Translations under genes and position numbers: made by a program
Assembly: GCA_017406005.1 (NCBI GenBank)
Contig: JAFQZI010000170.1
Location: 1 to 56,672, forward strand
DNA: 56,672 nucleotides
Direction: 5' to 3'
Source of the DNA: Oscillospiraceae bacterium
GTDB taxonomy: Bacteria; Bacillota; Clostridia; Oscillospirales; Oscillospiraceae
In this document: positions 1,900 to 33,467 of the stretch, piece by piece
Position numbering within the stretch: position 1 is the first letter of the stretch
Layout: each line of letters begins with the position of its first letter
The notes under the pieces: model-generated
Seen by the model: only the letters and a program-made list of their open reading frames with translations
Told to the model about the DNA's origin: nothing
Databases searched by the model: none

Positions 1900-1962
1900 G
1901 CTCGCGACGGAGCACTGCAATCGAAGTACAACGTAGTCTTCGCGAGCAGCCAGTACGCACCA
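1900..1962 (+). promoter_or_regulatory. Repeated GCTCGCGA leader element, copy A
   Basis: GCTCGCGA at 1900-1907 and its exact reverse complement TCGCGAGC at 1940-1947 are 40 bp apart start to start. They enclose a 32-nt interior with GAGCAC, AATC and GTCT in fixed positions. AGC follows, then a further GCAC. The same element occurs at 20658 and 22566. This copy begins 110 bp ahead of the degV start codon. Whether it acts as an RNA stem-loop or as a DNA operator cannot be told from sequence. Confidence 0.6.
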
Positions 1963-2009
1963 AACACGAGGTACACCCTCATATCAATAACGAACACGGA
2001 GGTCCCCCC

Positions 2010-2900
2010 ATGAACACCGATTACATTCTCACCAGCGAAATGCCCGCCGATCTCACCAGAGAGCACTTCGAAAAAAGAAGCGTTCCCGTCATCCCGTTCC
2101 ACTTCTTCCTCGACGAACAGGAGCACCTGGAAGACTTCGGCGTGACCGTTCCTTTTGATGCCTTTTATAAGAGAATTGCCGACGGTGCCATGACGCGCAC
2201 CTCCCAGCCCAATATTTCGGAGTACGTCTCCTTCTTCACCCCGTTCCTTGACCAGGGGAAGGACGTTGTCCATATCACCCTCTCCTCCGGCATTTCGGGC
2301 GCCTACAATTCGGCAAGGAATGCCGCAGAGATCCTTTCCGAGCGCTATCCCGACAGGAAGCTCTACATCATTGACTCCCTCGCAGCCTCATCCGGCCAGG
2401 GCCTCCTGGTTGACTGGGCGGCCGACCAGCGCGACGCCGGCCTCTCGGCTTCCGAGCTCGCAGCCTGGATCGAGGCGAACAGGCTGAGAGTCCACCACTG
2501 GTTCTTCACCACCGACCTCTCCACTTTCGTGCGCGGCGGCCGCGTGTCCAAGGCGGCGGGCATCTTCGGCGGCCTGCTGGACATCTGCCCCCTCCTGAAT
2601 GTCGATCCCAAGGGCTGCCTCACCGCCCGCGAGAAGATCCGCACCAAAAAGCGCGTCATCCGCGAAACCGTCAAAAAGATGGAGCAGTTTGCGGAAAACG
2701 GCAGGGAGTACGGCGGCAAATGCTACATCTCCCAGTCCGCCTGTTATGAGGATGCCAGAGCCGTGGCAGATTTGATCGAAGAGACCTTCCCGAAGCTCAA
2801 AGGCAAGGTCGAGATCAACTGGATCGGCAACCTGATCGGCTCCCATACCGGCCCTGGCACGGTAGCCCTCTTCTTCTGCAGCGCCGAACCGAGAACCTGA
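2010..2900 (+). CDS. DegV family fatty-acid-binding protein
   Basis: A 296-residue product of normal length for DegV proteins. In Firmicutes these bind a fatty acid between two domains, and some serve as the FakB subunit of fatty acid kinase, presenting acyl chains to FakA. Visible family marks are the TRTSQPN motif near residue 70, an SSGISGAYNSA loop that contacts the lipid carboxylate, DSLAASSGQG, FVRGGRVSK, and the C-terminal IGSHTGPGTVALFF. The start follows a GGAGG site 8 bases upstream. It stands alone behind the repeated leader element and is followed by a terminator. No fakA-like kinase is in the window, so a FakB role is inference. Confidence 0.9.
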   Translation: MNTDYILTSEMPADLTREHFEKRSVPVIPFHFFLDEQEHLEDFGVTVPFDAFYKRIADGAMTRTSQPNISEYVSFFTPFLDQGKDVVHITLSSGISGAYNSARNAAEILSERYPDRKLYIIDSLAASSGQGLLVDWAADQRDAGLSASELAAWIEANRLRVHHWFFTTDLSTFVRGGRVSKAAGIFGGLLDICPLLNVDPKGCLTAREKIRTKKRVIRETVKKMEQFAENGREYGGKCYISQSACYEDARAVADLIEETFPKLKGKVEINWIGNLIGSHTGPGTVALFFCSAEPRT

Positions 2901-2921
2901 AAAATCAGAAGTTAAAAACAT

Positions 2922-2952
2922 CCACCCTCACTTCCTTCTCGAAGCGGGGGTG
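2922..2952 (+). terminator. Terminator-like hairpin after degV
   Basis: CCACCC near 2922 pairs with GGGGGTGG near 2945-2952. It is followed by an AT-rich stretch rather than a pure T-run. Confidence 0.5.
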
Positions 2953-3031
2953 GATTGCTATATATGTTTTTATGCCTTTTGTGGGGAAAAAGTATAAGAT
3001 ATCACAGAGAAACCCTCTGAGACAGTAAGGC

Positions 3032-4216
3032 TTACTTCAGATTTGCCTTGATGATGTCGCCGATGATGCGGATGCCGTTGACGATCTGCTCGTCGCCGGC
3101 GCAGGAGTAGTTCAGGCGCATGCAGTGGTTGTTGCCGCCGTTGGGGAAGAACCCGGCGCCGGGCACATAGGCCACATTTTTTGCCAGGCACTGCGAGGCC
3201 ATGACCTTGGTGTCGATGTAATCAGGCAGCACAGCCCAGGTGAAGAGGCCGCCGTCCGGGTCCGTGAAGGTGACGCCCTCGGGGAAGTAATCCTTCATCG
3301 CCTGCACCATCACGCCGGCGCGGTGGCCGTACACGGCGCGGATCTTTTCCACGTGCGCGTCGATGTCGAACATCTCGAGGTACTTGGAAACCGCCATCGC
3401 CCCGAAGGTGGACGTCTGCAGAACGGCCGCCTGTGCGAGCAGGTTGAACTTGTTGATGTATTCGGGGTTTGCGCACATCCAGGCGATACGAGTGCCCGGT
3501 GCGAGGATCTTGGAGAAGGTGCCGAGATAGATCACGAGGTTCTTCGTATCCATCGATTTCAGGGCCGGCAGGAATTCTCCCTTGTAGCGCAGGTCGCCGT
3601 ACGGGTTGTCCTCCACCACGGGGATCTCATACTTCGTGATGATCTCCATGAATTCCTTGCGGCGCTCCAGCGGCCAGGTGCGGCCGGACGGATTCTGGAA
3701 GTCGGGGATGACGTAGATGAGCTTGACGTTCTTGGTCGTGGCGAGCACCTTTTCGAGCTCGGACATGATCATGCCGTTCTCATCGGTCGGGATTTCGACG
3801 AATCTCGGCTGGCTGAGCTTGAAGGCGTTGATGGCGCCGAGGTAGCTCGGGCTCTCCATAATCACCACGTCGCCGGGGTCGAGGAAGACTCTGCCCGCAT
3901 AGTCAAGCCCCTGCTGGGAGCCTGCCGTCAGCAGGATATCCTTCGGGTCGGCATGGATGCTGTTTTTCGCGAGCATCCGCTCCGCGATCTGCTTTCTGAG
4001 CGGTGCCCAGCCGTCCGTCGTGCCGTACTGCAGCGCAACGGTGCCCTGCTCATCGAGGACGGCGTCGCACGCTTTCTTGAAATCCTGCACGGGGAAGAGC
4101 TCCGGTGCGGGCAGGCCGCCTGCAAAAGAGGTCACTTCCGGGCGCTGGGTGAGAGCCAGCAGTTCACGGATTTCGGAGGCTTTCACGTTATCCATCATTT
4201 TCGCAAAATTGACCAT
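3032..4216 (-). CDS. PLP-dependent aminotransferase, class I/II (LysN/MocR-like)
   Basis: A 394-residue fold-type I aminotransferase. Order of marks: N-terminal ITSFAGG-like segment (VTSFAGGLPAPELFP), LQYGTTDGWAPLRKQIAERM, the TAGSQQGLD cofactor-phosphate loop, PDFQNPSGRTW, DNPYGDLRY, and the Schiff-base lysine in YLGTFSKILAPGTRIAW. The overall form matches the 2-aminoadipate/aromatic aminotransferase group (LysN, and the free-standing relatives of MocR C-terminal domains). Substrate cannot be read from sequence; branched, aromatic or aminoadipate amino acids are possible. The start is preceded by an AAAGGAGC site and a good promoter (4263-4291). It is monocistronic. Confidence 0.9.
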   Translation of the reverse strand: MVNFAKMMDNVKASEIRELLALTQRPEVTSFAGGLPAPELFPVQDFKKACDAVLDEQGTVALQYGTTDGWAPLRKQIAERMLAKNSIHADPKDILLTAGSQQGLDYAGRVFLDPGDVVIMESPSYLGAINAFKLSQPRFVEIPTDENGMIMSELEKVLATTKNVKLIYVIPDFQNPSGRTWPLERRKEFMEIITKYEIPVVEDNPYGDLRYKGEFLPALKSMDTKNLVIYLGTFSKILAPGTRIAWMCANPEYINKFNLLAQAAVLQTSTFGAMAVSKYLEMFDIDAHVEKIRAVYGHRAGVMVQAMKDYFPEGVTFTDPDGGLFTWAVLPDYIDTKVMASQCLAKNVAYVPGAGFFPNGGNNHCMRLNYSCAGDEQIVNGIRIIGDIIKANLK

Positions 4217-4262
4217 GGTATCTGCTCCTTTTCAGTGTTTTTTTCAGGTTTCTGATGCCTGT

Positions 4263-4291
4263 ATTTTATCATAAACGGGCAGGGATGTAAA
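4263..4291 (-). promoter_or_regulatory. Sigma-A promoter of the aminotransferase gene
   Basis: On the minus strand TTTACA (4286-4291) and TAAAAT (4263-4268) are separated by 17 bases, ahead of the aminotransferase start at 4216. Confidence 0.65.
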
Positions 4292-4293
4292 GC

Positions 4294-5208
4294 TTATCCT
4301 TCCATGATGTGCATGCTGCGAAGCGTTTGGGATTCGATGCGCTCCTGCACCTCAAAGGCATGCGCTTCGAGATAATCGGAGCTGCTGTCAGTCAGGCCCT
4401 GGCGTCTGAGCTCGGCGATCACCTGCGTGCAGATGTCTTCCACAACGCCCTGTTTGAGAGCGCTGTCATTCTCGCCTAGCAGGAGGAATTCCAGCGCATC
4501 TTTCAGCTCCGCTAAGCTTTCCAGCCTCTCCATGGCGCGGAAGACCCATTTATAATACGGCTCGTGTGCCCTGTTGAGCAGAAAGACCATGCTGCAGGCG
4601 CTGCGCACGAATTCCGTCAGCGCGAGCTGGGCGGCGCCGGCCTCTCCGTGCCGCAGACAGCGCATGTAGTTGTACTGGCCCGCCTGCGCCATGCTGACGG
4701 CCCGGGCGGCGATCTTCTTCCGGCGCACGTCTTCGGGCATCCCGTGCAGCAGCGTTTCCCGCACGGCGGAGAATTCGCCCAGGTCATCCCGCCAGACCTC
4801 GCCGTTCGTCGCCTCCGCGAGTGCATACGAGGGGAGGGCAAGCCAGTGCTCCGGGCTTTCCGGCGCGCCGGCACAGCCGGTATACCGCCGGTAGAAGTCG
4901 CTTATGCGCAGCACGCCGAGCTTTTTTTCACCCAGGGCGCTCCGCTCGGCAGCCGGGGAAGAGAGCAGAGCGCGGTAGGCGTGCGACAGGCGCGTGCCGA
5001 AGGCCAGGTCGTCTTCGTCCGTGACCCACAGGCAGAAGCCCGGCTCAAAATCATGGTCGCGGGACAGCTCGTCGTCAAAGCCGAAGCATTCGGAGCCGTG
5101 CCCGGCAAGCCCCACGGCGATCCGCCCCTCCGCTTCCGGGAACAGCGCATGGATCATCTCCGCACCGCGCGAAACATAGAGCGCTTTCGCCTCTTCCAGC
5201 CCTTTCAT
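4294..5208 (-). CDS. DUF4037 domain protein (nucleotidyltransferase-like)
   Basis: A 304-residue protein. The N-terminal half carries GLAGHGSECFGFDDELSRDH followed by DFEPGFCLWV. This GS...D-D/E-SRDHD arrangement is the diagnostic block of DUF4037 proteins and resembles the metal-binding site of polymerase-beta-type nucleotidyltransferases. The middle and C-terminal parts are helical. Start: ATG at 5208 with GGGAGG 6 bases upstream. It diverges from the gene at 5280 over a 71-base gap whose ATTATATAAT core could serve both directions. Substrate unknown. Confidence 0.8.
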   Translation of the reverse strand: MKGLEEAKALYVSRGAEMIHALFPEAEGRIAVGLAGHGSECFGFDDELSRDHDFEPGFCLWVTDEDDLAFGTRLSHAYRALLSSPAAERSALGEKKLGVLRISDFYRRYTGCAGAPESPEHWLALPSYALAEATNGEVWRDDLGEFSAVRETLLHGMPEDVRRKKIAARAVSMAQAGQYNYMRCLRHGEAGAAQLALTEFVRSACSMVFLLNRAHEPYYKWVFRAMERLESLAELKDALEFLLLGENDSALKQGVVEDICTQVIAELRRQGLTDSSSDYLEAHAFEVQERIESQTLRSMHIMEG

Positions 5209-5221
5209 ATGCGTCCTCCCA

Positions 5222-5250
5222 TTGATTTTTCTTCCGTCAGATTATATAAT
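5222..5250 (+). promoter_or_regulatory. Sigma-A promoter in divergent gap
   Basis: TTGATT (5222-5227), 17-base spacer, TATAAT (5245-5250), 29 bases ahead of the start at 5280. The -10 lies in an ATTATATAAT palindrome, so the opposite-strand DUF4037 gene may share it. Confidence 0.65.
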
Positions 5251-5279
5251 AAAACAAATGAATGCGAAAGAGGTTTTTT

Positions 5280-6137
5280 ATGGAAAGCAAACTCGAAAAT
5301 GCCGTGGAGCTTCTGAAAAGCGAGGGTTTTGCCGGGCCGTACAGTTTCATTTTCATGATCCGCTGGGCCGCCCTCACCGAAGACAGGGCGCTTCTGCAGC
5401 GCATCGGCAAATCGCTGGAGGAGATGGATTCCTTTCGGGAGAGTGCATCCCTTGCCTATGTCTATGCGGAGTATTATGAGGCGTCCCGGGCCCCTTTCTG
5501 TGAACCTGCCGCGGCGTTTCTGATCGGCAGGTGCTCTGAGGAGGACCCGCTTTATCTCGCAGCCCTTGCCAAATGCGCCCGCGTGTTCCGGCGTGAGGAG
5601 TTTTTTGCCCTGGCCCGGCCTCTTGCGGATGAATGCCCGCCTGCAGATCCCTTTGCCGCCCTCGGCCTGCTGGAGCTTTACCGTGCCACCTTCCACGGGG
5701 AATATCTGAATCGTGCAGTCGCCGTTGCGGAGGAGATCCGTCTGCGTTTCAAAGAGCTCTTCTCTCCGGACGAGGCTTATGACGGTGAAGAACCGTCCTT
5801 CAACAGCGCCGTTGCCCTGCTCTATGATGAGCTCGCCCGCCTCACACAGGAGGAGCAGTGGGTCAAAGCCCGGGAAGTGCAGAACAGGTTCATCTCCCTC
5901 CTGGCTGACCGGTATCCCACCCGTGTCTCCTTCGGGCTTTGTGCCCTGCTGTCGGACGCTTTTGAAGCGAAGACGATCGTCTGCGCTGTCCCGGAGGGGA
6001 AAGAGCCGCCGGAGCTGGACGCACTGCTCTCTTTTTACGCACCCTTGACCGAGCGGATCGTGATCCCGACGAAAATCGATACCGTAAAATACTTTCTGAT
6101 GCAAAACGGAAAGCTTGAAGAAATAAAAGGCATATGA
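5280..6137 (+). CDS. YyaL/DUF255-like C-terminal domain protein, lacking thioredoxin domain
   Basis: A 285-residue protein. The segment YDGEEPSFNSAVALLYDELA followed by RLTQEEQWVKAREVQNRF resembles the alpha/alpha-toroid C-terminal part of YyaL/spermatogenesis-associated-20 proteins (EPSGNS...LLRLARLTG pattern). Those are about 600-700 residues and begin with a thioredoxin-like DUF255 domain that is absent here. An ATG at 5262 is in frame, but the ATG at 5280 has the ribosome binding site (AAGAGG at 5268-5273), so 5280 is preferred. It is 13 bases ahead of the next gene and heads the envelope operon. Family assignment is moderate; function unknown. Confidence 0.55.
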   Translation: MESKLENAVELLKSEGFAGPYSFIFMIRWAALTEDRALLQRIGKSLEEMDSFRESASLAYVYAEYYEASRAPFCEPAAAFLIGRCSEEDPLYLAALAKCARVFRREEFFALARPLADECPPADPFAALGLLELYRATFHGEYLNRAVAVAEEIRLRFKELFSPDEAYDGEEPSFNSAVALLYDELARLTQEEQWVKAREVQNRFISLLADRYPTRVSFGLCALLSDAFEAKTIVCAVPEGKEPPELDALLSFYAPLTERIVIPTKIDTVKYFLMQNGKLEEIKGI

Positions 6138-6143
6138 TAGAAT
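6115..6143 (+). promoter_or_regulatory. Internal promoter giving a possibly leaderless mRNA
   Basis: TTGAAG (6115-6120), exactly 17 bases, TAGAAT (6138-6143). The start codon at 6151 lies 7 bases after the -10, about where transcription should begin, and no ribosome binding site precedes it. Confidence 0.5.
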
Positions 6144-6150
6144 AGCCGTC

Positions 6151-8034
6151 ATGATGAAAAAGACGTTTGCTGTTATTTTGCTTATTCTGCTCCTCGCCGG
6201 CTGCGCCGTGCCTTCTTTTGCAGAGGACATCCCGGAGCCCGGGCTGGATGCCGCCCTGCGCAAGGCGCAGGAATTCAACGAGTGGATGCGCCAACGTACG
6301 GATGATGAAATCGCAGCGGAAATGCACATCTCCCGCTGGGATGTTCTCAGCCCCTACGGAACAGAAGCCCCGCCCGATCCGCTTATTGAAGTCTCCGAGG
6401 GTGACACGTGGGACGATCTGCTCCAGCGCCTTCTTGTAAAATACGAGGCCGACGCTGAAGGTGTCGGCATCGGCTATTACAACAACCGTACCGGGGAAGA
6501 GCACTACATCAATGCCGACCGGTATATGGTATCTGCCAGTATGTTCAAGGTCCCGCTGAACATGATCTATGCCGACAAGGTATCCTCCGGCGAGATGACT
6601 ATGGATTCCGAGATCTTCGGTGCGCCGTACCGCTGGTACCAGTACCGCACCATCGTCGAGTCGGATAACGACAGGTCGGTGGACCTGATGAATTATCTCG
6701 GCGGATACCGGGCTTTCAAGGAGTACCAGATCCCCTATCTCGGCAATGACCCGGTTGAGGATCTCGGCTGGAACTACCAGATTGAGAACTTCTACAATCC
6801 GCGCCAGTTTATCCACATGCTCCGCTCTCTCCTCGCCGAGCCGGAGCGGTTTCCCGGCATCCTGGAAAACATGCTGCAGGCGACCCCGTATTCCTATCTC
6901 CACCAGTACGAGCGCCGCTATCCGATCGCCCAGAAATACGGCTTTGTGGAGCAGGCGGAGTCGAACCGGGGATACCACACCTATATCAATTCCTGTGGCG
7001 TTGTCTTTACCGAGACGCCCTTCTGCCTCGTCATTTTTACCGACAATGTCCTGAAGGCCTACGACCTGATGGCGGAATACTGTATGGTCATGTGTGACTA
7101 TACCAATATGGTCTCCCGCCTTGCCGACGAGGAAGACGTTCAGCGGCAGGCGGAAGAGCAGCAGGCGGAGCTCCTCCGGAGCGAATCCGACCGGGCCGCC
7201 ATCGCCGCAGAGGCGCAGGCCCTTGCCGCAGCACTTCGGGGAGAGCGCACAGATGTCGTGCTTTCCCCGGTTCCGTTATCCAGCGAAAAATCGACAGACC
7301 GGCCAGCGAGGTTTTCTATGTCAGTTTTATCTTCTATCCTCCTGCTTTGGATCTTCATAGCAATGACCATCGGCTTTGTGGTGATCTTCCGCCACAACGT
7401 ATCCGGCAAAGTCAACGCGTTCTGGGCTGTGCTCGCCATCATCCTGACGGCGCTTGCGCTCGTGCTCTGCATCACGGGGTCGAACTTCGGCACGCTCTAC
7501 GCCAAGCCGGGCGGGGACCCGGGGGAGACGGTTTCGACGTTTCTTGATGCCGTCCTGGCGGAAGAATACGACACCGCCTATTCCTGCCTGAGCAACTACT
7601 CCAGCCTCGGCCTGGAACTCACGCCGGAAACGGAAGAGAGCCGCATGCTCTATGATGCCCTGAAGCAGAGCTACGGCTTTACGCTCCGCGGCACCGCGGA
7701 GATTGACAGGCTGACGGCCCGGCAGACCGTCGCCCTGATGCACCTGAATCTGAAAGCGGTGAAAAACGATGCCGCCGAGCGCGTGGAAGCCCTTTTGCAG
7801 GAGCTGGCGGAAAAACGCCCGCATGAACAGATCTTTGATGAAAACGGGAAGGTCCTTCCTGCCGTTTCCGACGAGGTTTACCGCACCGCGCTTGCACAGG
7901 CGCTGGACACCGGCAACCGGTACTATACCTCTTCCGACATAGAGATCGAGCTGGAATACGTCAACGGCCGGTGGCTGATCCGCGCAGGGGAAAGTCTCCT
8001 GTCTGCCCTCTCGGGAGGCGCGGCCGATGCCTAA
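6151..8034 (+). CDS. Serine beta-lactamase-fold lipoprotein with C-terminal membrane region
   Basis: A 627-residue exported protein. The N-terminus has a signal ending LLAGC (lipobox), so it is a likely lipoprotein. Residues 85-310 resemble class A beta-lactamase/serine hydrolase folds: the SxxK nucleophile motif is SMFK at residues 130-133, an SDN-like motif is SDND near residue 171, and a KYG segment near 268 could replace KTG. An acidic/alanine-rich coiled stretch follows, then two membrane helices around 385-445 and a roughly 150-residue extracytoplasmic tail. It overlaps the next gene by 8 bases. Role in peptidoglycan or antibiotic response is inference; it may be non-catalytic. Confidence 0.7.
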   Translation: MMKKTFAVILLILLLAGCAVPSFAEDIPEPGLDAALRKAQEFNEWMRQRTDDEIAAEMHISRWDVLSPYGTEAPPDPLIEVSEGDTWDDLLQRLLVKYEADAEGVGIGYYNNRTGEEHYINADRYMVSASMFKVPLNMIYADKVSSGEMTMDSEIFGAPYRWYQYRTIVESDNDRSVDLMNYLGGYRAFKEYQIPYLGNDPVEDLGWNYQIENFYNPRQFIHMLRSLLAEPERFPGILENMLQATPYSYLHQYERRYPIAQKYGFVEQAESNRGYHTYINSCGVVFTETPFCLVIFTDNVLKAYDLMAEYCMVMCDYTNMVSRLADEEDVQRQAEEQQAELLRSESDRAAIAAEAQALAAALRGERTDVVLSPVPLSSEKSTDRPARFSMSVLSSILLLWIFIAMTIGFVVIFRHNVSGKVNAFWAVLAIILTALALVLCITGSNFGTLYAKPGGDPGETVSTFLDAVLAEEYDTAYSCLSNYSSLGLELTPETEESRMLYDALKQSYGFTLRGTAEIDRLTARQTVALMHLNLKAVKNDAAERVEALLQELAEKRPHEQIFDENGKVLPAVSDEVYRTALAQALDTGNRYYTSSDIEIELEYVNGRWLIRAGESLLSALSGGAADA

Positions 8035-9244
8035 CCGTCCGTCCGTCAGGAGAGAGAGCCATGTCAGGAAGCAGCAGCGCCCCTTCTTCTCGGTAGGGGC
8101 GGTTTTTGCCGTGCTCTCCTTGCTCGTCCTCTGCTGGATGGCGCTTGCCCTGCATCCCGATTCCCACACCTCTGCCGACTGGTCGGAGGCAAAGGCGCAT
8201 ACCAATCTCGTCGCGGGGCTGGATGTGTTTTCCGCCAACAGCAGGAATGCGGCCTTCGCCAGCATAACCGAACCCGCAAAGGAGCACTATATCATCCCGG
8301 AGGGGGCGCTTTCTGCTCCCGTGCCGGACGTTCTCTCCTATGGTGAGACGTATCGTGCCCGTGACGTGATGGAGACGATTGAAGACGCCAGGGATTCCGG
8401 CCTTCTCGGCCGGTCCGAGCGCATGGTTTTTTCCCTCTCCTCCGCCTTCCATAAGGACAGCCCCATCCTCACGTATTTTGACGAGACGATCCTGGCGATC
8501 ACCTGGCAGGAAGAGATCGACGGTCACCTCTGCACCCTCTGTGAAGTCAAGCTGGCCGACGCCTCCCAGATCCGCCGGAAGCTCTCGCAGGACCTCTATG
8601 CGGCCCCTGTGAAGACGGTTGCCACCGACCTCGCGGCGCAGGGGCATGCCGTTGCGGCTTTCAATGCCGATAATTACCTCAGCCATGAGCTGGGCATTGC
8701 GGTATATCAGCGGGAATTGCATCGCTTCCTCCGCTGGCCGTTTTCTTTCACAAACAGCTGCTTCAATGCCATCGATACGCTTTTTGTGGATGCCTCCGGC
8801 AACTTCCGCTTCAGCCTGGCCGGCACGCAGTGGAGCCGGGAGGATCTGGAGCGCTTTCTCGCGAACAGCGATATCCGCTTCTCCCTTGTCAGCGGCCCGG
8901 TGCTGGTCGTCGGCGGGCAGGCACAGGAGATCGGAAGCTATCCGCTCGGCTCACCCGGCTCTTCTTCCGCGCGCGCAGCCATTGCCCAGTGTGGCACCCT
9001 GCACTATCTCTATTTCTCGGTGCCGGAAGCTGAAGGCGATTCCGGCTGCACGGCACAGGAACTCGCGGTGATGCTGCAGAACAAAAAGGTGGAGCACGCC
9101 TATGCACTCGCCGGCGGTCAGACGGCGGAACTCGTTTTTGACTGCCGGGTATATGCCCCGATGGAGGACAAGGTCGAAGCTCCCGTGAGCGATATCCTCT
9201 ATTTTGCCACGGCGCTTCCGTATAAGGGGGTGGCGAAGAAATGA
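8027..9244 (+). CDS. Membrane-anchored phosphodiester glycosidase (NAGPA-like)
   Basis: A 405-residue protein with one N-terminal membrane helix (about residues 22-42) and an outside domain. Characteristic phosphodiester-glycosidase (NAGPA/exopolysaccharide family) pieces are FNADNYLSHELGIAVYQREL, FVDASGNFRF, FSLVSGPVLVVGGQ, YPLGSPGSSSARAAIAQCGT and VEHAYALAGGQTAELVF. The usual GGGS near the end is replaced by AGGQTA. The family hydrolyses sugar phosphodiesters and is linked to cell-surface glycopolymers. The gene overlaps its upstream neighbour by 8 bases and the downstream gene by ATGA (9241-9244), so the three products are probably made together at the membrane. Confidence 0.7.
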   Translation: MPNRPSVRRESHVRKQQRPFFSVGAVFAVLSLLVLCWMALALHPDSHTSADWSEAKAHTNLVAGLDVFSANSRNAAFASITEPAKEHYIIPEGALSAPVPDVLSYGETYRARDVMETIEDARDSGLLGRSERMVFSLSSAFHKDSPILTYFDETILAITWQEEIDGHLCTLCEVKLADASQIRRKLSQDLYAAPVKTVATDLAAQGHAVAAFNADNYLSHELGIAVYQRELHRFLRWPFSFTNSCFNAIDTLFVDASGNFRFSLAGTQWSREDLERFLANSDIRFSLVSGPVLVVGGQAQEIGSYPLGSPGSSSARAAIAQCGTLHYLYFSVPEAEGDSGCTAQELAVMLQNKKVEHAYALAGGQTAELVFDCRVYAPMEDKVEAPVSDILYFATALPYKGVAKK

Positions 9245-10290: not shown

Positions 10291-10318
10291 AAAACCGCTG
10301 TTCCCGCAGCGGTTTTTT
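10291..10318 (+). terminator. Intrinsic terminator of envelope operon
   Basis: AAAACCGCTG pairs with CAGCGGTTTTTT around a 6-base loop directly after the stop codon. The symmetry allows bidirectional use. Confidence 0.85.
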
Positions 10319-10345
10319 GCTGGCTGGCGAAGCCAAAAGTCTTCC

Positions 10346-10374
10346 TTGAAATGGCAAAAGTGTTATGATACAAT
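10346..10374 (+). promoter_or_regulatory. Sigma-A promoter of the smc operon
   Basis: TTGAAA (10346-10351), 17 bases, TACAAT (10369-10374), 71 bases ahead of the smc start. Confidence 0.75.
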
Positions 10375-13463: not shown

Positions 13464-13467
13464 AAAT

Positions 13468-14957: not shown

Positions 14958-17884
14958 TGAATACAGGCCTTTATCTCTCACAGTCCTATCAGGATGCGTG
15001 GAGTGACTATCAGAGAAGCGTCCGCAATGCCTCCTTCCCGGTGTGGGACTATGTAGTGCTCACAGCCAGCAACGCCCACCAGGCGAAAGGCTTTCAGGCG
15101 CAGCTGGATGCCCGGAAGGCTTTCCTTCCGTCACGGTCGCAGTTCCTGGTTCTCCCGGATGAGGGAGACGTCCGCGTCGGGAGCGGCGGGGCAACACTTT
15201 CCGTGCTGAAAGCGATCCGGGAGCGTGAGCCTTCCTTCTCCGGAAAGCGGATCCTTGTGATCCACAGCGGGGGCGACAGTAAACGCATTCCGCAGTATTC
15301 TGCCCTTGGCAAACTGTTTTCACCCGTTCCGCACCTTTTGCCGGACGGGCGTTCCTCCACCCTGTTTGATGAGTTCATGATCGCCATGTCCGCCGTGCCC
15401 GGCCGCATCCGGGAGGGCATGCTTCTCCTGAGCGGGGATGTGCTGCTGCTCTTCAACCCCCTCCTGATCGACTATCCCGGCCACGGGGCAGCTGCCGTCA
15501 GCTTCAAGGAGAAGGTGGAAACGGGCAAGGATCACGGTGTTTACCTCCGCGGGGAAGACGGTTGTGTGCGCTCCTTCCTGCATAAGCAGACCGAGGAGAC
15601 GCTCCGCTCCGCCGGCGCCGTGAACGAAAACGGTGCGGTGGATATTGACACCGGCGCCGTCATCTTCGGGGCAGACATGCTCGAGAGCCTCTACGGCCTG
15701 ATTTCCACCGGCGGAGTGTTTGATGGCGAAAAGTACCGCTCCCTGGTCAACAGCAGGGTCCGCCTGAGCCTCTACGGGGATTTTCAGTACCCGCTGGCGT
15801 CCGACTCCACACTTGAGCAGTTTTACCTCGAAAAGCCGGAAGGTTCTTTCAGCGACGAGCTCCGGCAGGCCCGGACAGCCGTCTGGCAGTCGCTGCGGCC
15901 GTACCGCATGAAGCTCCTGCGGCTGGCTCCGGCCAAATTTATCCACTTCGGCACCACGCAGGAAGTCCTGCACCTGATGGACGAGGAAACGCCTCAGTAC
16001 AACCACCTCGGCTGGAGCAGGCGTGTTGCCTGTTCCATGGAGGAAGGCGCCGGTTACAACTCCGTCGTCTCGCCGCGCGCATCCGTCGGCGATCACTGCT
16101 ATTTTGAAGTCTCCTATGTGCACGGCGGCGCCCGGATCGGGGAGGGGAGCATCCTCTCCTATCTCGAAGTGCGTGACGGGGATGTCATCCCTCCGCACAC
16201 GGTCCTGCACGGCCTGAAGCAGACGGACGGCAGGTTCGTCTGCCGCACCTACGGCGTTGCGGACAACCCGAAGGGCTCTCTCCTCTTCGGCACGCCCCTG
16301 GAGGGTGACCTCTGGGAGGAAGGCGAGGAGCACACGCTCTGGAATGCCCGCCTCTATCCCGTGTGCGACACGATTCAGGAGGCCGTCGCCTGGGCTCTGA
16401 AGCTGCCGGAGATGGTTTCTTCCGGCGTCTGGCCGGAGGAGTGGAGGGAGAGCGCACGCAAATCCCTCTGTTCAGGCTTCAACGATGCCGATCCGCAGGC
16501 CATCCTGAGCTGGGATGCGCGGATGCGCCAGCTCGTGGAGATGAATACGCTTGCTTCTATGATTGAGCGGAAAGTTCCCGCCCGGGAGGGCAGGCTCTCC
16601 GCCCCGCTGACGCCGATCCAGGAGCTATGGCTGAAATCCCATCTCCGGTGGGCGGACATCAGCGAGGAGATGCGCCTGCACTGGTACGTCGGCACGGCGC
16701 TCGGCACAGCCGAGGGCGAAAAGGAAGCCGCCGAAGCCTTCTCCTGCCTCGGCAGGGCGATCCTTCAGGAGTCGCTTTCCGGTCTGCGGGTCTGTGCGGA
16801 GGCGAAAATTACGAAAGAGGAGCATTCCGTCTCTCTGCCGCTCCGCGTGAACTTCGGCGGCGGCTGGTCGGATACGCCCCCCTACTGCAACGAAAACGGC
16901 GGCACGGTCCTCAATGCGGCCATCCTCCTCAACGGCGAGAGGCCTGTCCGGGTGTCGCTCAAACGCCTGGACGAGCCGAAGATCGTCTTCGACAGCCGGG
17001 ATATGGACGTCCACGGGGAATTCACCGCCATCGAACCGCTCCAAAGCGTCGGCGACCCGTTTGACGCCTTCGTCCTGCAGAAAGCGGCCCTTCTGGCCTG
17101 CGGCGTGATCCCGGCCATGGGCGGCAGCCTCTTTGAGGTGCTCTCCCGTCTCGGCGGCGGCTTCCTGATGGAATCGGAAGTCACCGGCGTGCCGAAAGGC
17201 TCCGGCCTTGGCACCAGCAGCATCCTGGCAGCGGCCTGCGTGAAGGCGCTGTTCGAATTTCTCGGCATTGCCCATACGGAAGACGATCTCTACTCGCACG
17301 TCCTCTGCATGGAACAGATCATGTCGACCGGCGGCGGCTGGCAGGATCAGGTCGGCGGTGTGACGGACGGCATCAAGTACATCTCCTCCCGCCCCGGGCT
17401 CCGGCAGGTGCTCAGGGTCGAGCATGTGGAACTGGAGAGGGAGACGCTTGATGAGCTCAACGATCGCTTTGCCCTGATCTACACCGGGCAGAGGCGGCTG
17501 GCACGCAACCTCCTGCGCGACGTCGTAGGCCGCTACCTCGGCAATGAGCCCGATGCGCTCTATGCCCTCAACGAAATCCAGCGCAAGGCCGCGCTGATGC
17601 GCTTCGAGCTTGAGCGCGGGGATGTGGATGCCTTTGCCGCCCTCCTCAACGAGCACTGGGAGCTGAGCAAGATGATCGACAGCGGCTCCACCAACACGCT
17701 GATCGACCAGATTTTCGACTCCGTGGAGGACCTGATCGCCGGCCGGATGGTCTGCGGCGCCGGCGGGGGGGGCTTCCTGCAGGTGGTGCTGAAGCCCTTC
17801 GTCACGAAAAGGGAACTCCAGGCGCGCCTCAAATCCGTTTTCCAGGATACGGACATCAACGTCTGGGATTGCACGATCCTGTGA
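14957..17884 (+). CDS. fkp: Bifunctional fucokinase / fucose-1-phosphate guanylyltransferase
   Basis: A 975-residue two-domain enzyme of the Fkp type: L-fucose to L-fucose-1-phosphate to GDP-L-fucose. The N-terminal half has the nucleotidyltransferase-type VGSGGATLSVLKAI and HSGGDSKRIPQYSALGKLFS segments plus a beta-helical region (about 340-430). The C-terminal half is a GHMP kinase with LPLRVNFGGGWSDTPPYCNE, the phosphate loop PKGSGLGTSSILAAA, and a late CGAGGGGFLQVV. Length matches Bacteroides Fkp (about 950). It is coupled to rdgB. Free L-fucose scavenged in a gut setting would be the substrate, used for fucosylated surface glycans; no fucosyltransferase is in the window. Confidence 0.85.
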   Translation: MNTGLYLSQSYQDAWSDYQRSVRNASFPVWDYVVLTASNAHQAKGFQAQLDARKAFLPSRSQFLVLPDEGDVRVGSGGATLSVLKAIREREPSFSGKRILVIHSGGDSKRIPQYSALGKLFSPVPHLLPDGRSSTLFDEFMIAMSAVPGRIREGMLLLSGDVLLLFNPLLIDYPGHGAAAVSFKEKVETGKDHGVYLRGEDGCVRSFLHKQTEETLRSAGAVNENGAVDIDTGAVIFGADMLESLYGLISTGGVFDGEKYRSLVNSRVRLSLYGDFQYPLASDSTLEQFYLEKPEGSFSDELRQARTAVWQSLRPYRMKLLRLAPAKFIHFGTTQEVLHLMDEETPQYNHLGWSRRVACSMEEGAGYNSVVSPRASVGDHCYFEVSYVHGGARIGEGSILSYLEVRDGDVIPPHTVLHGLKQTDGRFVCRTYGVADNPKGSLLFGTPLEGDLWEEGEEHTLWNARLYPVCDTIQEAVAWALKLPEMVSSGVWPEEWRESARKSLCSGFNDADPQAILSWDARMRQLVEMNTLASMIERKVPAREGRLSAPLTPIQELWLKSHLRWADISEEMRLHWYVGTALGTAEGEKEAAEAFSCLGRAILQESLSGLRVCAEAKITKEEHSVSLPLRVNFGGGWSDTPPYCNENGGTVLNAAILLNGERPVRVSLKRLDEPKIVFDSRDMDVHGEFTAIEPLQSVGDPFDAFVLQKAALLACGVIPAMGGSLFEVLSRLGGGFLMESEVTGVPKGSGLGTSSILAAACVKALFEFLGIAHTEDDLYSHVLCMEQIMSTGGGWQDQVGGVTDGIKYISSRPGLRQVLRVEHVELERETLDELNDRFALIYTGQRRLARNLLRDVVGRYLGNEPDALYALNEIQRKAALMRFELERGDVDAFAALLNEHWELSKMIDSGSTNTLIDQIFDSVEDLIAGRMVCGAGGGGFLQVVLKPFVTKRELQARLKSVFQDTDINVWDCTIL

Positions 17885-17911
17885 GTGAGTTCTCTGTTCA
17901 CAAAAATATCA

Positions 17912-17940
17912 TTGAAAAACTCCTCACAATAGCATATAAT
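17912..17940 (+). promoter_or_regulatory. Sigma-A promoter of SPFH-murF operon
   Basis: TTGAAA (17912-17917), 17 bases, TATAAT (17935-17940), 53 bases ahead of the start at 17993. Confidence 0.8.
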
Positions 17941-17992
17941 TTTCATATAGAAATCCAGGACTTGTTTTGCGTTTCAGAAAGGAGCAAATTGT

Positions 17993-19237
17993 ATGGGCCT
18001 TATCAGTGCAGCAGTCAATTCCGTAACGGGCGTAGCCCAGAGCCAGTGGAAGGAATTCTTCTACTGTGATGCGATTCCTTCGGATATCCTTGTCGTAAAA
18101 GGCAAAAAGAAAAACACCGGGTACTCTTCTGCCGCCCGGCTGAATGACAATGTCATTTCGGACGGTTCCGTCATCGCCGTGGCAGACGGGCAGTGCATGA
18201 TGATCACCGAGCAGGGCAAGGTGGTGGATATCTGTGCCGAATCCGGCGAGTATATCTATGACATGTCTTCCGAACCATCTGTATTTACCGGAGATCTCGA
18301 TGAATCCGTCATAAAGGTCTTTCTGGAGATCGGAAAACGCTTCAGCTTCGGCGGCGTTGCCGGGAAGGACCAGAGAGTTTATTATTTCAATACCAAGGAG
18401 ATCGTCGGCAACAAGTACGGTACGCCGAACCCGGTGCCCTTCCGGATTACGGACAAAAACATCGGGCTGGATATCGATGTCGGTGTCCGCTGCTTCGGAG
18501 AATACAGCTATCGCATCTGCAACCCGATCCTGTTTTACACCAATATCTGCGGCAATGTGAGTGATGCCTATTCCAAGCACAATCTGGACGGACAGCTGCG
18601 TGCAGAACTGCTGACGGCTCTTCAGCCCGCGTTTGCAGCCATTTCCGAAAAGGGCATCCGCTATTCCGCTCTGCCCGGCCATGCCGGCGAGATCTGTGAT
18701 GCGCTCAATGATGCTCTTGCTCCGAAGTGGAGGAACCTTCGCGGAATTGAAATCGTCTCCTTCGGTGTTTCGAGTGCGACCATCAGTGAAGATGACGAGA
18801 AGATGATCAAGGAGCTCCAGCGCACGGCTGCGCTGAAAGATCCTGCCATTGCGGCTGCACATCTCGCAGGTGCCCAGGCCCAGGCCATGCAGGCTGCTGC
18901 AAGCAATGCAGCCGGAGCTGCAACGGGCTTTTATGCCATGAATATGGCAGCCCAGGCAGGCGGCATGAATGCGGCAAACCTCTTTAACCTCGCTTCCCAG
19001 CAGGCTGCCCAGAATCAGGCGCCTCAGGCTGCCGCATCTGCCGGAAGCTGGACGTGCCCGTCGTGCGGCACGCTGAACCAGGGCAAATTCTGCATGGAAT
19101 GCGGTGCGAAAAAGCCGGCCGGTGCATTGAAGTACCGCTGCGACAAGTGCGGATGGGTTCCCGCGGACCCGACGAAGCCGCCCAAGTTCTGCCCGGAATG
19201 CGGTGATCCTTTCAATACCGAAGATATAGATTCCTGA
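17993..19237 (+). CDS. SPFH-domain protein with C-terminal zinc ribbons (YdjI-like)
   Basis: A 414-residue protein. Residues 1-280 form the SPFH/virion-core-like domain typical of B. subtilis YdjI relatives (ends FGVSSATISEDDEKMIKELQ). An Ala/Gln-rich low-complexity linker (about 280-345) follows, then two zinc ribbons: CPSC...CMEC and CDKC...CPEC. No signal peptide. YdjI-type proteins sit at the inner membrane surface and take part in membrane-stress responses. The gene follows its own promoter and AAAGGAG site and is 8 bases ahead of murF, which suggests a shared envelope role. Confidence 0.8.
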   Translation: MGLISAAVNSVTGVAQSQWKEFFYCDAIPSDILVVKGKKKNTGYSSAARLNDNVISDGSVIAVADGQCMMITEQGKVVDICAESGEYIYDMSSEPSVFTGDLDESVIKVFLEIGKRFSFGGVAGKDQRVYYFNTKEIVGNKYGTPNPVPFRITDKNIGLDIDVGVRCFGEYSYRICNPILFYTNICGNVSDAYSKHNLDGQLRAELLTALQPAFAAISEKGIRYSALPGHAGEICDALNDALAPKWRNLRGIEIVSFGVSSATISEDDEKMIKELQRTAALKDPAIAAAHLAGAQAQAMQAAASNAAGAATGFYAMNMAAQAGGMNAANLFNLASQQAAQNQAPQAAASAGSWTCPSCGTLNQGKFCMECGAKKPAGALKYRCDKCGWVPADPTKPPKFCPECGDPFNTEDIDS

Positions 19238-19245
19238 GGAGAACG

Positions 19246-20616
19246 ATGTTTGGTCTTACTGTTTCCGAGGCCGCCGCGATCTGCGGCGGCCCGGTTTATA
19301 CTTTGCCGCATCAGCCTGATGCGGCCGATACGGAATTAACCGGCATCGTAATCGACAGCCGTGCCGTCAAACCCGGCAATCTTTTTGTCGCCTATCGCGG
19401 CGAGAAGACGGACGGACATCTGTACATTGCTTCTGCGCTGCGAAGCGGTGCAGCCTGTGCACTGGCGGAGTACGTTCCGGAGGGAGTTGCCGACCCCGTC
19501 ATAGTATGTGAAGATGTGCAGGCGGCGATCGAGAAGCTGACGGCAGCTTTTCGGGAGAAGATTTCCGTCCCGGTGATTGGCATCACGGGCAGTGTGGGCA
19601 AAACCACTGCCAAGGAGATGGTGTCCGCCGTGCTGAGCCAGCGTTACCGCGTGCATAAGAATGCAGGGAATCTGAACAATACTATCGGCGTGCCGGTTGC
19701 GCTCAGCGGGGTCAGCAGAGAGGATGAAGTCGTTGTACAGGAGATGGGCATCAATCACTTCGGAGAGATGGACCATCTCGGTGCGATGGTGAAGCCTGAT
19801 CTCATACTCTTCACACGGATCGCGCATGCACATCTGGAGTTTCTCGGGGATCTCAACGGTGTATTCCGAGCAAAAACGGAAGTGCTGGCCCATATGAAGG
19901 GCGATGCCCCGGTTTTTTACAACGGAGATGATCCGTATCTCACGCCCCTTGCCGAAAGGGAGAACAGCATGAGCTTCGGCAGGGGAGAGCACTGCGACGT
20001 ACGCGCGAAAAACGTCACCTTCCGGGCAGACGGCCCCATCTCCTGTGACATCTGTTTTCAGGATCGCACGATCCCTGTGGAAATCCCTGCCTTTGGGGAA
20101 CATATGGTTTATGCAGCAATGGAAGGGGCCGCCGTGGGGCTGTATTTTGGCCTGACCGATGAGGAAATCTCTGCCGGCATTGCCGCTTATCGGACGGTCG
20201 GCCGCCGCTTCTCCTGCCAGGATACCGGCTCTATCCTGCTGATCGATGACTGCTACAATGCCAATCCCGACTCTGTAATGTCTTCCGTCAATACGCTGAT
20301 GGGCCTGCCGGGCAGGCATGTCTGTGTGCTGGGCGAAATGCTTGAACTCGGTGGGGAATCTGCCCGGATGCACCGGGAGATCGGAGCCTATGCCCGCTCA
20401 AAAGGAGTGGATCTGCTGATTGCCTCCGGTGAGCTGTGCAGGCAAACGGTGCAGGGATTCGGAGAAGGCGCTGTACACTTTCCCGACAAGCCATCTATGA
20501 TGGCAGCCCTTCCGGAGCTGCTTCGGCGCTCTGATGCCGTGCTGGTAAAGGCCTCTCTCGGCTCTGCCTATGCAGAGGTCTCCGACTTCTTGAAAAACCT
20601 TAAACTGCCGGAATGA
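19246..20616 (+). CDS. murF: UDP-MurNAc-tripeptide--D-Ala-D-Ala ligase MurF
   Basis: A 456-residue cytosolic Mur ligase adding D-Ala-D-Ala to UDP-MurNAc-tripeptide, the last soluble step of peptidoglycan precursor synthesis. An N-terminal substrate domain (about 1-100) holds IDSRAVKPGNLFVAYRGEKT. The central ATPase has GITGSVGKTTAKEMV, NLNNTIGVP and an EMGINHFGEM motif. The C-terminal domain has DDCYNANPDSV. Full length. Start ATG 19246 with GAGGAG 6 bases upstream. Its usual partners (ddl, mraY) are not adjacent here. Confidence 0.95.
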   Translation: MFGLTVSEAAAICGGPVYTLPHQPDAADTELTGIVIDSRAVKPGNLFVAYRGEKTDGHLYIASALRSGAACALAEYVPEGVADPVIVCEDVQAAIEKLTAAFREKISVPVIGITGSVGKTTAKEMVSAVLSQRYRVHKNAGNLNNTIGVPVALSGVSREDEVVVQEMGINHFGEMDHLGAMVKPDLILFTRIAHAHLEFLGDLNGVFRAKTEVLAHMKGDAPVFYNGDDPYLTPLAERENSMSFGRGEHCDVRAKNVTFRADGPISCDICFQDRTIPVEIPAFGEHMVYAAMEGAAVGLYFGLTDEEISAGIAAYRTVGRRFSCQDTGSILLIDDCYNANPDSVMSSVNTLMGLPGRHVCVLGEMLELGGESARMHREIGAYARSKGVDLLIASGELCRQTVQGFGEGAVHFPDKPSMMAALPELLRRSDAVLVKASLGSAYAEVSDFLKNLKLPE

Positions 20617-20657
20617 TAATTCTGTAGGAATAAGTGCGAAGCAGTCTGACTGTTTCA

Positions 20658-20722
20658 GCTCGCGATCGAGCACAAAAATCAAGGCAACATGTTGTCTTCG
20701 CGAGCAGCATGCAGAGCACTTC
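20658..20722 (+). promoter_or_regulatory. Repeated GCTCGCGA leader element, copy B
   Basis: GCTCGCGA at 20658-20665 and TCGCGAGC at 20698-20705, again exactly 40 bp apart, with interior GAGCAC, AATC and GTTGTCT matching copies A and C. It begins 104 bp ahead of the ahcY start codon, in the gap after murF. Confidence 0.6.
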
Positions 20723-20761
20723 TCTCGAAGAAACATCGTAATAAAATGAAAGGAAAACCAC

Positions 20762-22009
20762 ATGCAAAGTGAAATCAGGGATATTTCCCTTGCACCATCC
20801 GGTGCGAGAAAAATAGAATGGGTAGAGCGCAACTGCGACCTTCTGCGCACCCTTCGGACCGAATTCCGGGAGACGCTTCCGTTCCGCGGCCTTCGCATTG
20901 CCCTTTCCGTGCATCTGGAAGCGAAAACGGCTTTCCTCTGCAAGGTGCTGCAGGCAGGCGGAGCAGAGATGTTCGTCACCGGCTCCAATCCGCTCTCCAC
21001 GCAGGATGATGTGGCAGCGGCCCTTGTGGCGGACGGGATGGAGGTGCACGCCTGGTACGGAGCCACCGAGGAGGAATACTTCTCCCATATCCGGCATGTG
21101 CTGGAAAACCGCCCGAATATCATCATTGATGACGGCGGCGATCTCGTCAATATGATCCACAACGAGATGCCGGAGCTGATTCCCGGGATCATCGGTGGCT
21201 GTGAGGAGACTACCACCGGCATCAACCGCCTCGAAGCAATGAATCGTGCCGGAAAGCTTGCCTTTCCAATGATTCGTGTCAACAATGCCGCCTGCAAGCA
21301 CTTCTTTGACAACCGCTACGGCACCGGCCAGTCTGTGTGGGACGGGATCTGCCGTACTACCAACCTGATCGTTGCCGGCAAGGTGGTTGTAGTGTCCGGA
21401 TACGGCTGGTGCGGCAAAGGTACGGCGCTTCGGGCGAAGGGGCTGGGAGCCCGCGTAGTCGTCACGGAGGTTAATCCGATCCGCGCGCTTGAAGCGGTGA
21501 TGGACGGATATGATATGATGCCGATGAAGGATGCCGCCGGGGTAGGAGATTTCTTTATCACTGTCACCGGATGCGACAAGGTCATCGGCGAAGAGATCTT
21601 CCCCCTTCTCAAGGACGGGGCGATACTCTGCAATGCCGGCCACTTCGACACGGAAATCGATATGGCCTGCCTTCGTTCCGTTGCGCTGGAGCAGCGGGAA
21701 CAGCGGAAGAACATCATGGGCTACCGCCTCGAAAACGGCCGCTGGATCTTCGTCCTGGGTGAGGGGCGACTGGTCAATCTCGCCTGCGCCGACGGGCACC
21801 CGGCTGAGATTATGGACATGAGCTTTGCCATTCAGGCCCTCTCGGCGAAATATCTGGTGGATCATGCCGGAAAGATGACGGAAAAGCTGATCGATGTGCC
21901 CCCTGAGGTGGACCGCGGCGTTGCAACGCGCAAACTCGCCTTCATGGGTAAAAAAATCGATACGCTTACTGCGGGGCAAGAGCAGTATCTCAACAGCTAT
22001 AATTTATGA
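20762..22009 (+). CDS. ahcY: Adenosylhomocysteinase
   Basis: A 415-residue NAD-dependent enzyme splitting S-adenosylhomocysteine into adenosine and homocysteine, recycling the product of SAM methylations. Recognisable parts: FVTGSNPLSTQDDVAAALV, the acidic DDGGDLVNMIHNEMPE, EETTTGINRLEAM, the Rossmann loop GYGWCGKGTALRAKGLGARV, NAGHFDTEID, and a late YLVDHAGKM. The short form matches thermophile/archaeal-type enzymes. Start ATG 20762 after AAAGGAA. It overlaps msrC by ATGA, and the repeated leader element lies upstream. Many Firmicutes use Pfs/LuxS instead, so this is a notable choice of route. Confidence 0.95.
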   Translation: MQSEIRDISLAPSGARKIEWVERNCDLLRTLRTEFRETLPFRGLRIALSVHLEAKTAFLCKVLQAGGAEMFVTGSNPLSTQDDVAAALVADGMEVHAWYGATEEEYFSHIRHVLENRPNIIIDDGGDLVNMIHNEMPELIPGIIGGCEETTTGINRLEAMNRAGKLAFPMIRVNNAACKHFFDNRYGTGQSVWDGICRTTNLIVAGKVVVVSGYGWCGKGTALRAKGLGARVVVTEVNPIRALEAVMDGYDMMPMKDAAGVGDFFITVTGCDKVIGEEIFPLLKDGAILCNAGHFDTEIDMACLRSVALEQREQRKNIMGYRLENGRWIFVLGEGRLVNLACADGHPAEIMDMSFAIQALSAKYLVDHAGKMTEKLIDVPPEVDRGVATRKLAFMGKKIDTLTAGQEQYLNSYNL

Positions 22010-22476
22010 GTATGAGAAAAACGGATTATCAGCTCCTTGCAGAGCAGCTTGCTTCACTCACGACAGGAGTGCCTCATCAGACAGCGAATCTCGCCAATGC
22101 CTCAGCTCTCCTATGGCGGGAGTTGGGCGGGATCAACTGGGCAGGGTTCTATCTTGCGGAAGGAGACCTGCTGGTGCTCGGGCCGTTTCAGGGGAAGCCT
22201 GCCTGTATTGAAATCCCCTTCGGCAAAGGGGTGTGCGGAAGTGCCGCAGAGGCAGACAGAACCCTTGTCGTCGACGATGTGCATACTTTTCCCGGCCATA
22301 TCGCATGCGATGGTGCTTCCAATTCCGAGATCGTCATTCCGCTCCATGCCGACGGAAAGGTAATCGGTGTGCTGGATATCGACAGCCCGCTCTTTTCCCG
22401 TTTTACACCGGAAGACAAGCTCGGCCTGGAGCAGTTTGCCGCGATTCTTGAACGGAATCTTTGGAATGGGCAGTGA
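22006..22476 (+). CDS. msrC: Free methionine-(R)-sulfoxide reductase, GAF domain
   Basis: A 156-residue single GAF-domain enzyme reducing free methionine-R-sulfoxide. The three redox cysteines are at residues 67, 77 and 101; their spacing (10 and 24) equals that of E. coli fRMsr (84, 94, 118). Context blocks NWAGFYL, GKGVCGSA, DVHTFPGHIACDGASNSEIV and GVLDIDSP are all typical. It is translationally coupled to ahcY, joining methionine repair to homocysteine recycling in one transcript. The downstream gap holds copy C of the repeated leader. Confidence 0.93.
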   Translation: MSMRKTDYQLLAEQLASLTTGVPHQTANLANASALLWRELGGINWAGFYLAEGDLLVLGPFQGKPACIEIPFGKGVCGSAAEADRTLVVDDVHTFPGHIACDGASNSEIVIPLHADGKVIGVLDIDSPLFSRFTPEDKLGLEQFAAILERNLWNGQ

Positions 22477-22565
22477 AATCTGCCGCACAATTTCACGTAT
22501 TGATGAATTCAAAAATTATCCCTTTCACATATTAATGAATTCATAAAAATATCTCTCCCTTTATA

Positions 22566-22630
22566 GCTCGCGAAGGAGCACCAAAATCGAAGATTCATGT
22601 TGTCTTCGCGAGCAGCGTGCACAGCACCAA
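22566..22630 (+). promoter_or_regulatory. Repeated GCTCGCGA leader element, copy C
   Basis: GCTCGCGA (22566-22573) and TCGCGAGC (22606-22613), 40 bp apart; here the arms extend to 10 bp (GCTCGCGAAG/CTTCGCGAGC). It begins 109 bp ahead of the nitroreductase start. Just upstream, ATT(G/A)ATGAATTCA occurs twice (about 22499 and 22530), a possible extra protein-binding pair. Confidence 0.6.
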
Positions 22631-33426: not shown

Positions 33427-33467
33427 AAGAATAATATCCTACAATGTCAGAAAAGTTCATAAAACCA

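Follow-up and report, generated by a model that had tools for sequence, protein, structure and literature searches.

The 56,672-nucleotide stretch analyzed here (contig JAFQZI010000170.1 of the Oscillospiraceae bacterium assembly GCA_017406005.1; the window) carries three sequences of common architecture ahead of unrelated genes, which are very probably copies of a dispersed mobile repeat that forms a hairpin and is of the repetitive extragenic palindromic (REP), enterobacterial repetitive intergenic consensus (ERIC), or miniature inverted-repeat transposable element (MITE) kind. They are read as mobile DNA rather than as a gene leader because the genome of this gut bacterium holds at least 129 copies, these are in excess between convergent genes, part of the family has inverted ends flanked by 8-bp duplications, related genomes have empty sites, and the occurrence in the genus is patchy (5 of 102 genomes).

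The three copies share a 48-bp palindromic core, GCTCGCGA-N32-TCGCGAGC, on the plus strand at 1900-1947, 20658-20705, and 22566-22613. The arms (1900-1907 and 1940-1947; 20658-20665 and 20698-20705; 22566-22573 and 22606-22613) start 40 bp apart in every copy, with GAGCAC, AATC, and GTCT in register within the interior, and the core begins 110, 104, and 109 bp ahead of the start codons of degV (2010), ahcY-msrC (20762), and a nitroreductase gene (22675). An earlier reading of the DNA letters without database searches (the sequence-only reading) had reported this geometry and these distances, and all of them proved to be exact. The common unit spans ∼90 bp and consists of a pyrimidine-rich lead, a stem of 8 bp that encloses a conserved interior of 32 nt, and a tail of 28 nt (GCAC..ACGA); relative to the core, the conservation profile puts the limits of the unit at about −14 and +27. 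Copy 1 (1886-1975; 84.8 bits with the covariance model R2 described below), with a 14-bp lead and a 28-bp tail, lies in the 5′ region of degV. Copy 2 (20644-20734; 82.2 bits) is placed between a Mur-ligase-family gene (19246-20616) and ahcY, and copy 3 (22552-22642; 87.1 bits) between the msrC-like gene and the nitroreductase gene, all on the plus strand. Pfam assigned the genes to the DegV family, S-adenosylhomocysteine hydrolase followed by a GAF-domain (msrC-like) protein, and nitroreductase. Unfiltered R2 searches of the whole window at E ≤ 1 returned these three copies alone, each at 7e-23 or better, and model R1 at E ≤ 10 added two weak matches on the opposite strand, located at two of the three copies. 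Folding the window cores as single sequences gave z scores of −1.87 to −3.52.

The window element is not a chance occurrence, because a strict pattern built on its three copies found 19 exact copies in the window's own genome (G000; 3.5 Mb) and none with the reversed-pattern control. A search for CTCGCGA-N4..40-TCGCGAG matched 91 places in the genome, compared with 2 in the control (each counted once per strand). Model R1, built from 30 copies (18 from the strict pattern, with L007 left out, and 12 from a looser arm pattern), detected at least 129 copies in G000 at E ≤ 0.01 among the 150 candidates, out of 679, that were scored. R2, a shorter model of the ∼90-bp unit made from 61 copies of three species, recovered 145 copies in 92 G000 stretches covering 867 kb. 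Conserved cores are favored in these counts, as copies were detected by models that were themselves made from copies. The "three copies with identical arms" of the sequence-only reading thus describe the window only; genome-wide, the arms of the at least 129 copies vary. Among 130 aligned copies, 24 are longer (match length of 150 or more), mostly by virtue of a ∼40-bp insert after the core. Neighboring copies less than 300 bp apart form 17 pairs (e.g., L079:10319 and 10418, L087:6894 and 6997, L138:3016 and 3112, and L124:1637 and 1779), 15 of them head-to-tail and 2 opposed, and some pairs mix two arm subfamilies.

Occurrence outside G000 is narrow. A scan of 102 genomes of the genus with R2 under stricter filters, with 42 candidates scored per genome, gave matches at E ≤ 0.001 in five of them (at least 42 in G000, 38 in G024, 30 in G095, 18 in G020, and 1 in G090) and none at this threshold in the other 97. 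R1 had no match in 15 genomes of the order from outside the family. When GTDB 220 was scanned with a 19-base pattern, seven stretches were obtained, four from G024 and G020 and three that by eye have no second arm and were taken as chance; a stricter pattern found none in GTDB 220, a scan that may exclude records close to the genome of the window. The two relatives G020 and G024, whose AhcY proteins are 96% and 94% identical to that of the window, allowed comparison of orthologous sites. In G020 the ahcY spacer is a few tens of bases long and element-free, and the nitroreductase spacer and degV are also devoid of the element (0 of 3). In G024 it is absent from degV and from ahcY, which is preceded by unrelated sequence, and a diverged copy is found at the same nitroreductase gene (L206:12551-12678; 1 of 3). 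Unfiltered R2 searches at the degV loci of both relatives gave nothing better than E 3.4, and a weak match in G024 that overlaps the start of ahcY (13 bits, E 0.097) was taken as chance. The element is therefore not a conserved leader of the three genes, being missing at all of them in G020 and at two of them in G024. Reciprocally, four G024/G020 copies occupy places that are empty in G000 (two in L157, and one each in L216 and L223), as judged from 24 G020/G024 stretches (193 kb) against about 0.9 Mb of G000. At ten hand-picked places with a copy in both species, nearly all other G000 copies were more distant from the core than its positional partner was in two cases (0 and 3 of 129 as close), and at two more shared places such nearness was limited to the 3′ part (1 of 129 each). 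Vertical inheritance was therefore rejected as a general account of shared-site copies; these sites are either old and saturated or independent insertions.

Part of the family is delimited by ∼15-bp inverted ends, GTAACTRTTCAGTCC, aligned as TAACTGTTCAGTC..GACTGAACAGTTA. Both ends are recognizable in 27 copies, with 107 to 162 bp between them, a space too short for a transposase gene. The 8-mers flanking these 27 copies agree at 8 of 8 positions in three cases (L086, L093, and L127), 7 of 8 in one, 6 of 8 in three, and 5 or fewer in 20. Searching for the end sequence with at most one mismatch gave 47 places versus 4 in the control, many of them coinciding with listed copies, and one end pair, on contig C159, encloses a 1.6-kb insertion sequence (IS). 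It encodes a 477-amino-acid (aa) transposase (PF03050, 6e-43; NF033517, 245 bits against a cutoff of 180), and the coding region is flanked by GTAACTGTTCAGTCCT and an imperfect inverted copy of it. One further IS66-family transposase gene was detected in the assembly, on C35, and its 2,997-bp locus lacks such ends. An integron attC site was a further candidate, on account of the TAAC..GTTA ends. The copies with ends are MITEs of the IS66 family, ISBst12 type, as indicated by their inverted ends, the 8-bp duplications, and the same-ended IS in the assembly. Consistently, in the excerpted text of PMC12898284, ISDge4 of the ISBst12 group has the ends GTGACTACTCAGCA/GTAACTGCTCAGCA, an 8-bp direct repeat, and a 449-aa transposase, and an excerpt of PMC11946415 gives 8-bp repeats as characteristic of IS66. 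ISDge4 resembles the C159 IS in its single transposase gene (449 versus 477 aa) and GTAACT..TCAG ends, and part of the ended repeats in its 8-bp duplication, as far as the same excerpt on ISDge4 goes (PMC12898284). Unlike IS of this group, the repeats are gene-free, with 107 to 162 bp between ends, and have a conserved hairpin. A 161-bp MITE with a 4-bp repeat is described in part of another report (PMC12888890). A SUKH-family gene (PF09346) and a DUF6465 gene lie downstream of the C159 IS (L228:1950-2845).

The hairpin of the core is real, because its arms covary. Across 130 G000 copies, 98.9% of the cells are paired, and 53 two-sided changes involving six of the eight pairs were counted, compared with a shuffled mean of 5.9 and with 7 one-sided changes. 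In the set of 145 copies, pairing is again 98.9%, with 72 compensated cells versus 10.1 in shuffles and seven of eight pairs involved. Relatives behave similarly: the 29 G095 and G090 copies are paired at 98.2% (28 compensated versus 8.5 shuffled) and 58 distinct G020 and G024 copies at 92.6% (20 versus 2.9), while a smaller alignment of 25 G020/G024 copies gave 91.1% and 3 versus 1.0, a value reached by 24 of 500 shuffles. The arm subfamilies UCGCGCGA, GCGCGGGA, and GCUUGCGA have both arms altered together, and many double changes fall into such subfamilies (UCGCGCGA and GCGCGGGA), so that the cells do not represent independent events. These data bear out the stem with a conserved loop, and something more than a stray repeat, that the sequence-only reading had proposed. 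It had also held that compensatory arm changes around a kept loop would support RNA; the changes were found, but the lean to RNA is slight, as an excess of G-U over A-C cells (14 versus 5 in 145 copies) weakly favors pairing in plus-strand RNA. Quasipalindromes can be corrected by template switching during replication, a mechanism that makes arms match. Such correction, with no need for selection, is an unlikely source of the covariation here: it would account for the preponderance of compensated over one-sided cells (53 versus 7), but not for the conservation of the interior or the G-U excess (14 versus 5), and a 32-nt loop is long for this process.

Copies on the same contig tend to share a strand, as observed for 127 of 189 pairs at least 2 kb apart against a permuted mean of 94.7, reached in 2 of 3,000 permutations. 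Among the 32 copies with good ends alone, the tendency (6 of 9 pairs) was not significant, and neither GC skew nor gene direction explains it. A replication-strand bias was rejected, GC skew being weak and mixed between contigs; agreement of the element with the gene-majority strand, 72 versus 41 by raw counts, lost significance with contigs as the unit (7,052 of 20,000). Strand sharing and inverted symmetry would suit a palindromic double-stranded DNA operator bound by a dimeric regulator or a chromosome-organizing protein. However, we regard this as very improbable, since an operator should have a fixed half-site and seven of the eight arm pairs change on both sides (UCGCGCGA, GCGCGGGA, and GCUUGCGA), and since the agreement with the gene-majority strand is not significant. 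The fixed-arm, two-site operator envisaged in the sequence-only reading is likewise disfavored by arms that change together.

Gene contexts were derived from a simple codon-usage open reading frame (ORF) caller, not from annotation, in 76 stretches around matches. The 130 aligned copies were found between convergent genes (51), between co-directional genes (53; 25 with and 28 against the element), between divergent genes (17), inside a called ORF (4), or next to a stretch end (5). Element-free spacers of the same and 16 further stretches (n = 273) are convergent in 34 cases, co-directional in 166, and divergent in 73, so that convergent contexts are enriched among the copies with both neighbors called (51 of 121 versus 34 of 273; odds ratio, 5.1; P = 2.5e-10), with the qualification that background spacers start at 60 bp, that spacers holding an element are longer by necessity, and that weak R2 matches occur in two of the background stretches (L162 and L167). 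The gene downstream is in sense orientation for 42 of these 121 copies and antisense for 79. Copies at convergent 3′ ends are what the sequence-only reading had named as contrary to its proposed leader of a small regulon, and the occupation of every orientation between genes leaves that proposal without footing. Nor is there support for the suggested link to the methyl cycle, redox, or lipid state, as the genes behind leader-like copies have no common pathway, a judgment based on N-terminal sequences, with database searches for the window genes only; the names of these genes outside the window are presumed from the same N-terminal sequences.

The constant distance to the start codon holds for a subset. 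Among copies without recognizable ends ahead of a sense gene, 29 of 63 have 50 to 66 nt between the core end and the ATG, whereas copies with ends show this spacing in 1 of 10 cases from the core end and in 3 of 10 from near the right end. Stops are near as well. In the end-less set (62 low-end G000 copies plus all copies of the four relatives, a few of which hold end remnants), the tail lies at a median of 62 nt from starts (50 copies in the arrangement >E>) and 39 nt from stops (47 copies, >E<), and the gaps on the lead side are wider (medians of 69 and 100, respectively). Nearness of the tail to both stops and starts agrees with a unit that, in short spacers, sits right against the edge of a gene. 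A promoter in the tail was rejected: TAnnnT occurs between the tail and the Shine-Dalgarno (SD) sequence in 16 of 41 leader-like copies, with no conserved −10-like box, and visual inspection places the SD outside the unit. At the gathering score, Rfam 15 reported only a tRNA in the window and nothing at the element, and at E ≤ 1 no match fell inside the element at three other loci, which dismisses a known RNA family as its identity. The stem is not followed by a T run on either strand (by eye), as a Rho-independent terminator would require.

A 5′-untranslated-region RNA element, riboswitch-like or protein bound, acting in cis on downstream genes would be consistent with the covarying stem and conserved interior, with the 50- to 66-nt core-to-ATG spacing (29 of 63 copies, with some of G095 and the single G090 copy among them), and with the surplus of G-U over A-C cells, at 14 versus 5 in 145 copies and 7 versus 5 in 130. 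In addition, the degV copy lies downstream of a stretch that is similar in G020 and G024 and by eye is perhaps a promoter. Such a leader is nonetheless improbable, given that sense genes lie downstream of only 42 of 121 copies and antisense genes of 79, that close relatives have element-free sites at the window genes, that the downstream genes are unrelated, that the SD is outside the unit with no conserved box before it (by eye), and that Rfam has no match. The window's three genes are not shown to share regulation.

About half of the copies, the three of the window included, have no recognizable ends. When 26 end positions were scored in 130 copies, 32 copies had at least 20 matches, 36 had 14 to 19, and 62 had fewer than 14, which is about chance; the window copies scored 8, 11, and 11 of 26, and with their ends absent a target duplication cannot be placed. 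The ended form is rarer still in relatives: both ends reach at least 10 of 13 positions in 27 of 145 copies of G000, 1 of 40 of G024, 1 of 18 of G020, and none of the 29 of G095/G090, and the right end alone does so in 5 of the 18 G020 copies. Shuffled flanks (n = 232) reached this score at the left end in 7 cases, at the right in 5, and at both in none. From the end remnants in G020 and G024 it follows that the ended form is not confined to the window's genome and that decay accounts for at least some end-less copies.

Several observations weigh against the mobile-repeat reading in its IS66-derived form. An 8-bp duplication is not clear at the C159 IS, where 4 of 8 positions agree by eye, and the assembly that includes this 3.5-kb contig has 6.6% contamination. 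The window copies have neither ends nor duplications, so that kinship and empty sites are the grounds for inferring that they themselves transposed, and the scarcity of ended copies in relatives (1 of 40, 1 of 18, and 0 of 29) means that IS66 ends are not shown to explain most copies. Furthermore, the 62 copies with chance-level ends keep 87% of the arm positions and 7.69 of 8 stem pairs, unlike the plain decay of dead MITEs. In this class, agreement with the consensus is 73% in the interior, 67% in the 3′ spacer, and 40% at the ends. Plain decay is disfavored because ends, arms, and interior should then fall together, yet arms stand at 87% and ends at 40%; core-based detection favors kept arms in the end-less class, which weakens this point without removing it.

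In an alternative reading, the end-less ∼90-bp unit is a separate REP-like mobile element that spreads by its own means; it would have been captured once by IS66-type ends and have multiplied as a MITE mainly in the window's genome. We consider this possible, if doubtful. It would explain why so few copies of relatives carry IS66-type ends (1 of 40, 1 of 18, and 0 of 29), why homology in G024 stops at the same tail boundary, ACGACGTA, why the tail is near gene starts and stops (medians of 62 and 39) with the lead farther off (69 and 100), and why close pairs are tandem (15 of 17 head-to-tail). However, the right ends in 5 of 18 G020 copies and the paired ends in one G020 and one G024 copy fit decay of a once ended element, the end-less form is poorly delimited on its left side, and no enzyme was found: a single Y1 transposase gene in G000 exceeded the cutoff (C16), and its 3.4-kb locus (L175) has no TCGCG word or repeat, so that mobilization by Y1/RAYT was rejected. 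A direct repeat between hairpin interior and tail was also discarded, as it matches the consensus at 11 of 18 positions and another offset pair at 12 of 18. Tentatively, and with the balance tipped against it, one may picture a hairpin unit, mobile or self-maintaining through a putative enzyme, whose tail docks at gene edges and whose stem is kept by compensatory change; ISBst12-type ends would have turned it into a high-copy MITE in one species, and copies at 50 to 66 nt from a start may also serve as 5′-leader hairpins.

According to the favored mobile-repeat account, ended copies would be MITEs mobilized in trans, with the transposase of the C159 IS as the simplest agent. The window copies are most likely old, with decayed ends, or else they represent the end-less form that is dominant in relatives. 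They probably landed in short intergenic spaces and would thus be 5′ or intercistronic DNA by position, with no common regulatory input. The stem of the family is kept paired, perhaps for mobility, as an mRNA or single-stranded DNA hairpin, or through template-switch correction.

The repeats resemble Correia, ERIC, and QMITE elements in being short, noncoding, intergenic, hairpin forming, and present in tens to hundreds of copies, with inverted ends in some copies and with old copies lacking ends or duplications, as these elements appear in the available portion of a review on MITEs (PMC10969869), in which portion IS66 is not mentioned. Unlike them, about half of the repeats are end-less, and conservation is higher in stem and interior than at the ends. 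As with the REP elements of RAYT transposases in the excerpt of PMC2817692, they are extragenic palindromes in more than 100 copies per genome, but the unit is ∼90 bp, no RAYT was found beside the repeat, and neighbors are mostly head-to-tail (15 of 17) and not alternating. Searches of open-license papers brought up none that was recognizable as an account of such an IS66/ISBst12 MITE family.

Elsewhere in the window, an element of ∼9.2 kb is integrated in a tRNA-Pro(CGG) gene (33378-42622); it is bounded by 49-bp perfect direct repeats (33378-33426 and 42574-42622) and encodes a tyrosine integrase (33539-34945; PF00589, 3.8e-21). Seven other ORFs scanned in it had no Pfam match over the curated cutoff. 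In G020, tRNA-Pro runs into ∼20 bp that match the far side of this element.

Collectively, these findings remove a would-be regulon, since the three genes of the window are not tied by a common leader. In its place stands a family of repeats that provides evidence for the formation of MITEs by IS66/ISBst12-type ends. As the hairpin inside these repeats is better conserved than the transposon ends, the purpose of structure in small bacterial repeats could be tested on more than 100 natural variants.

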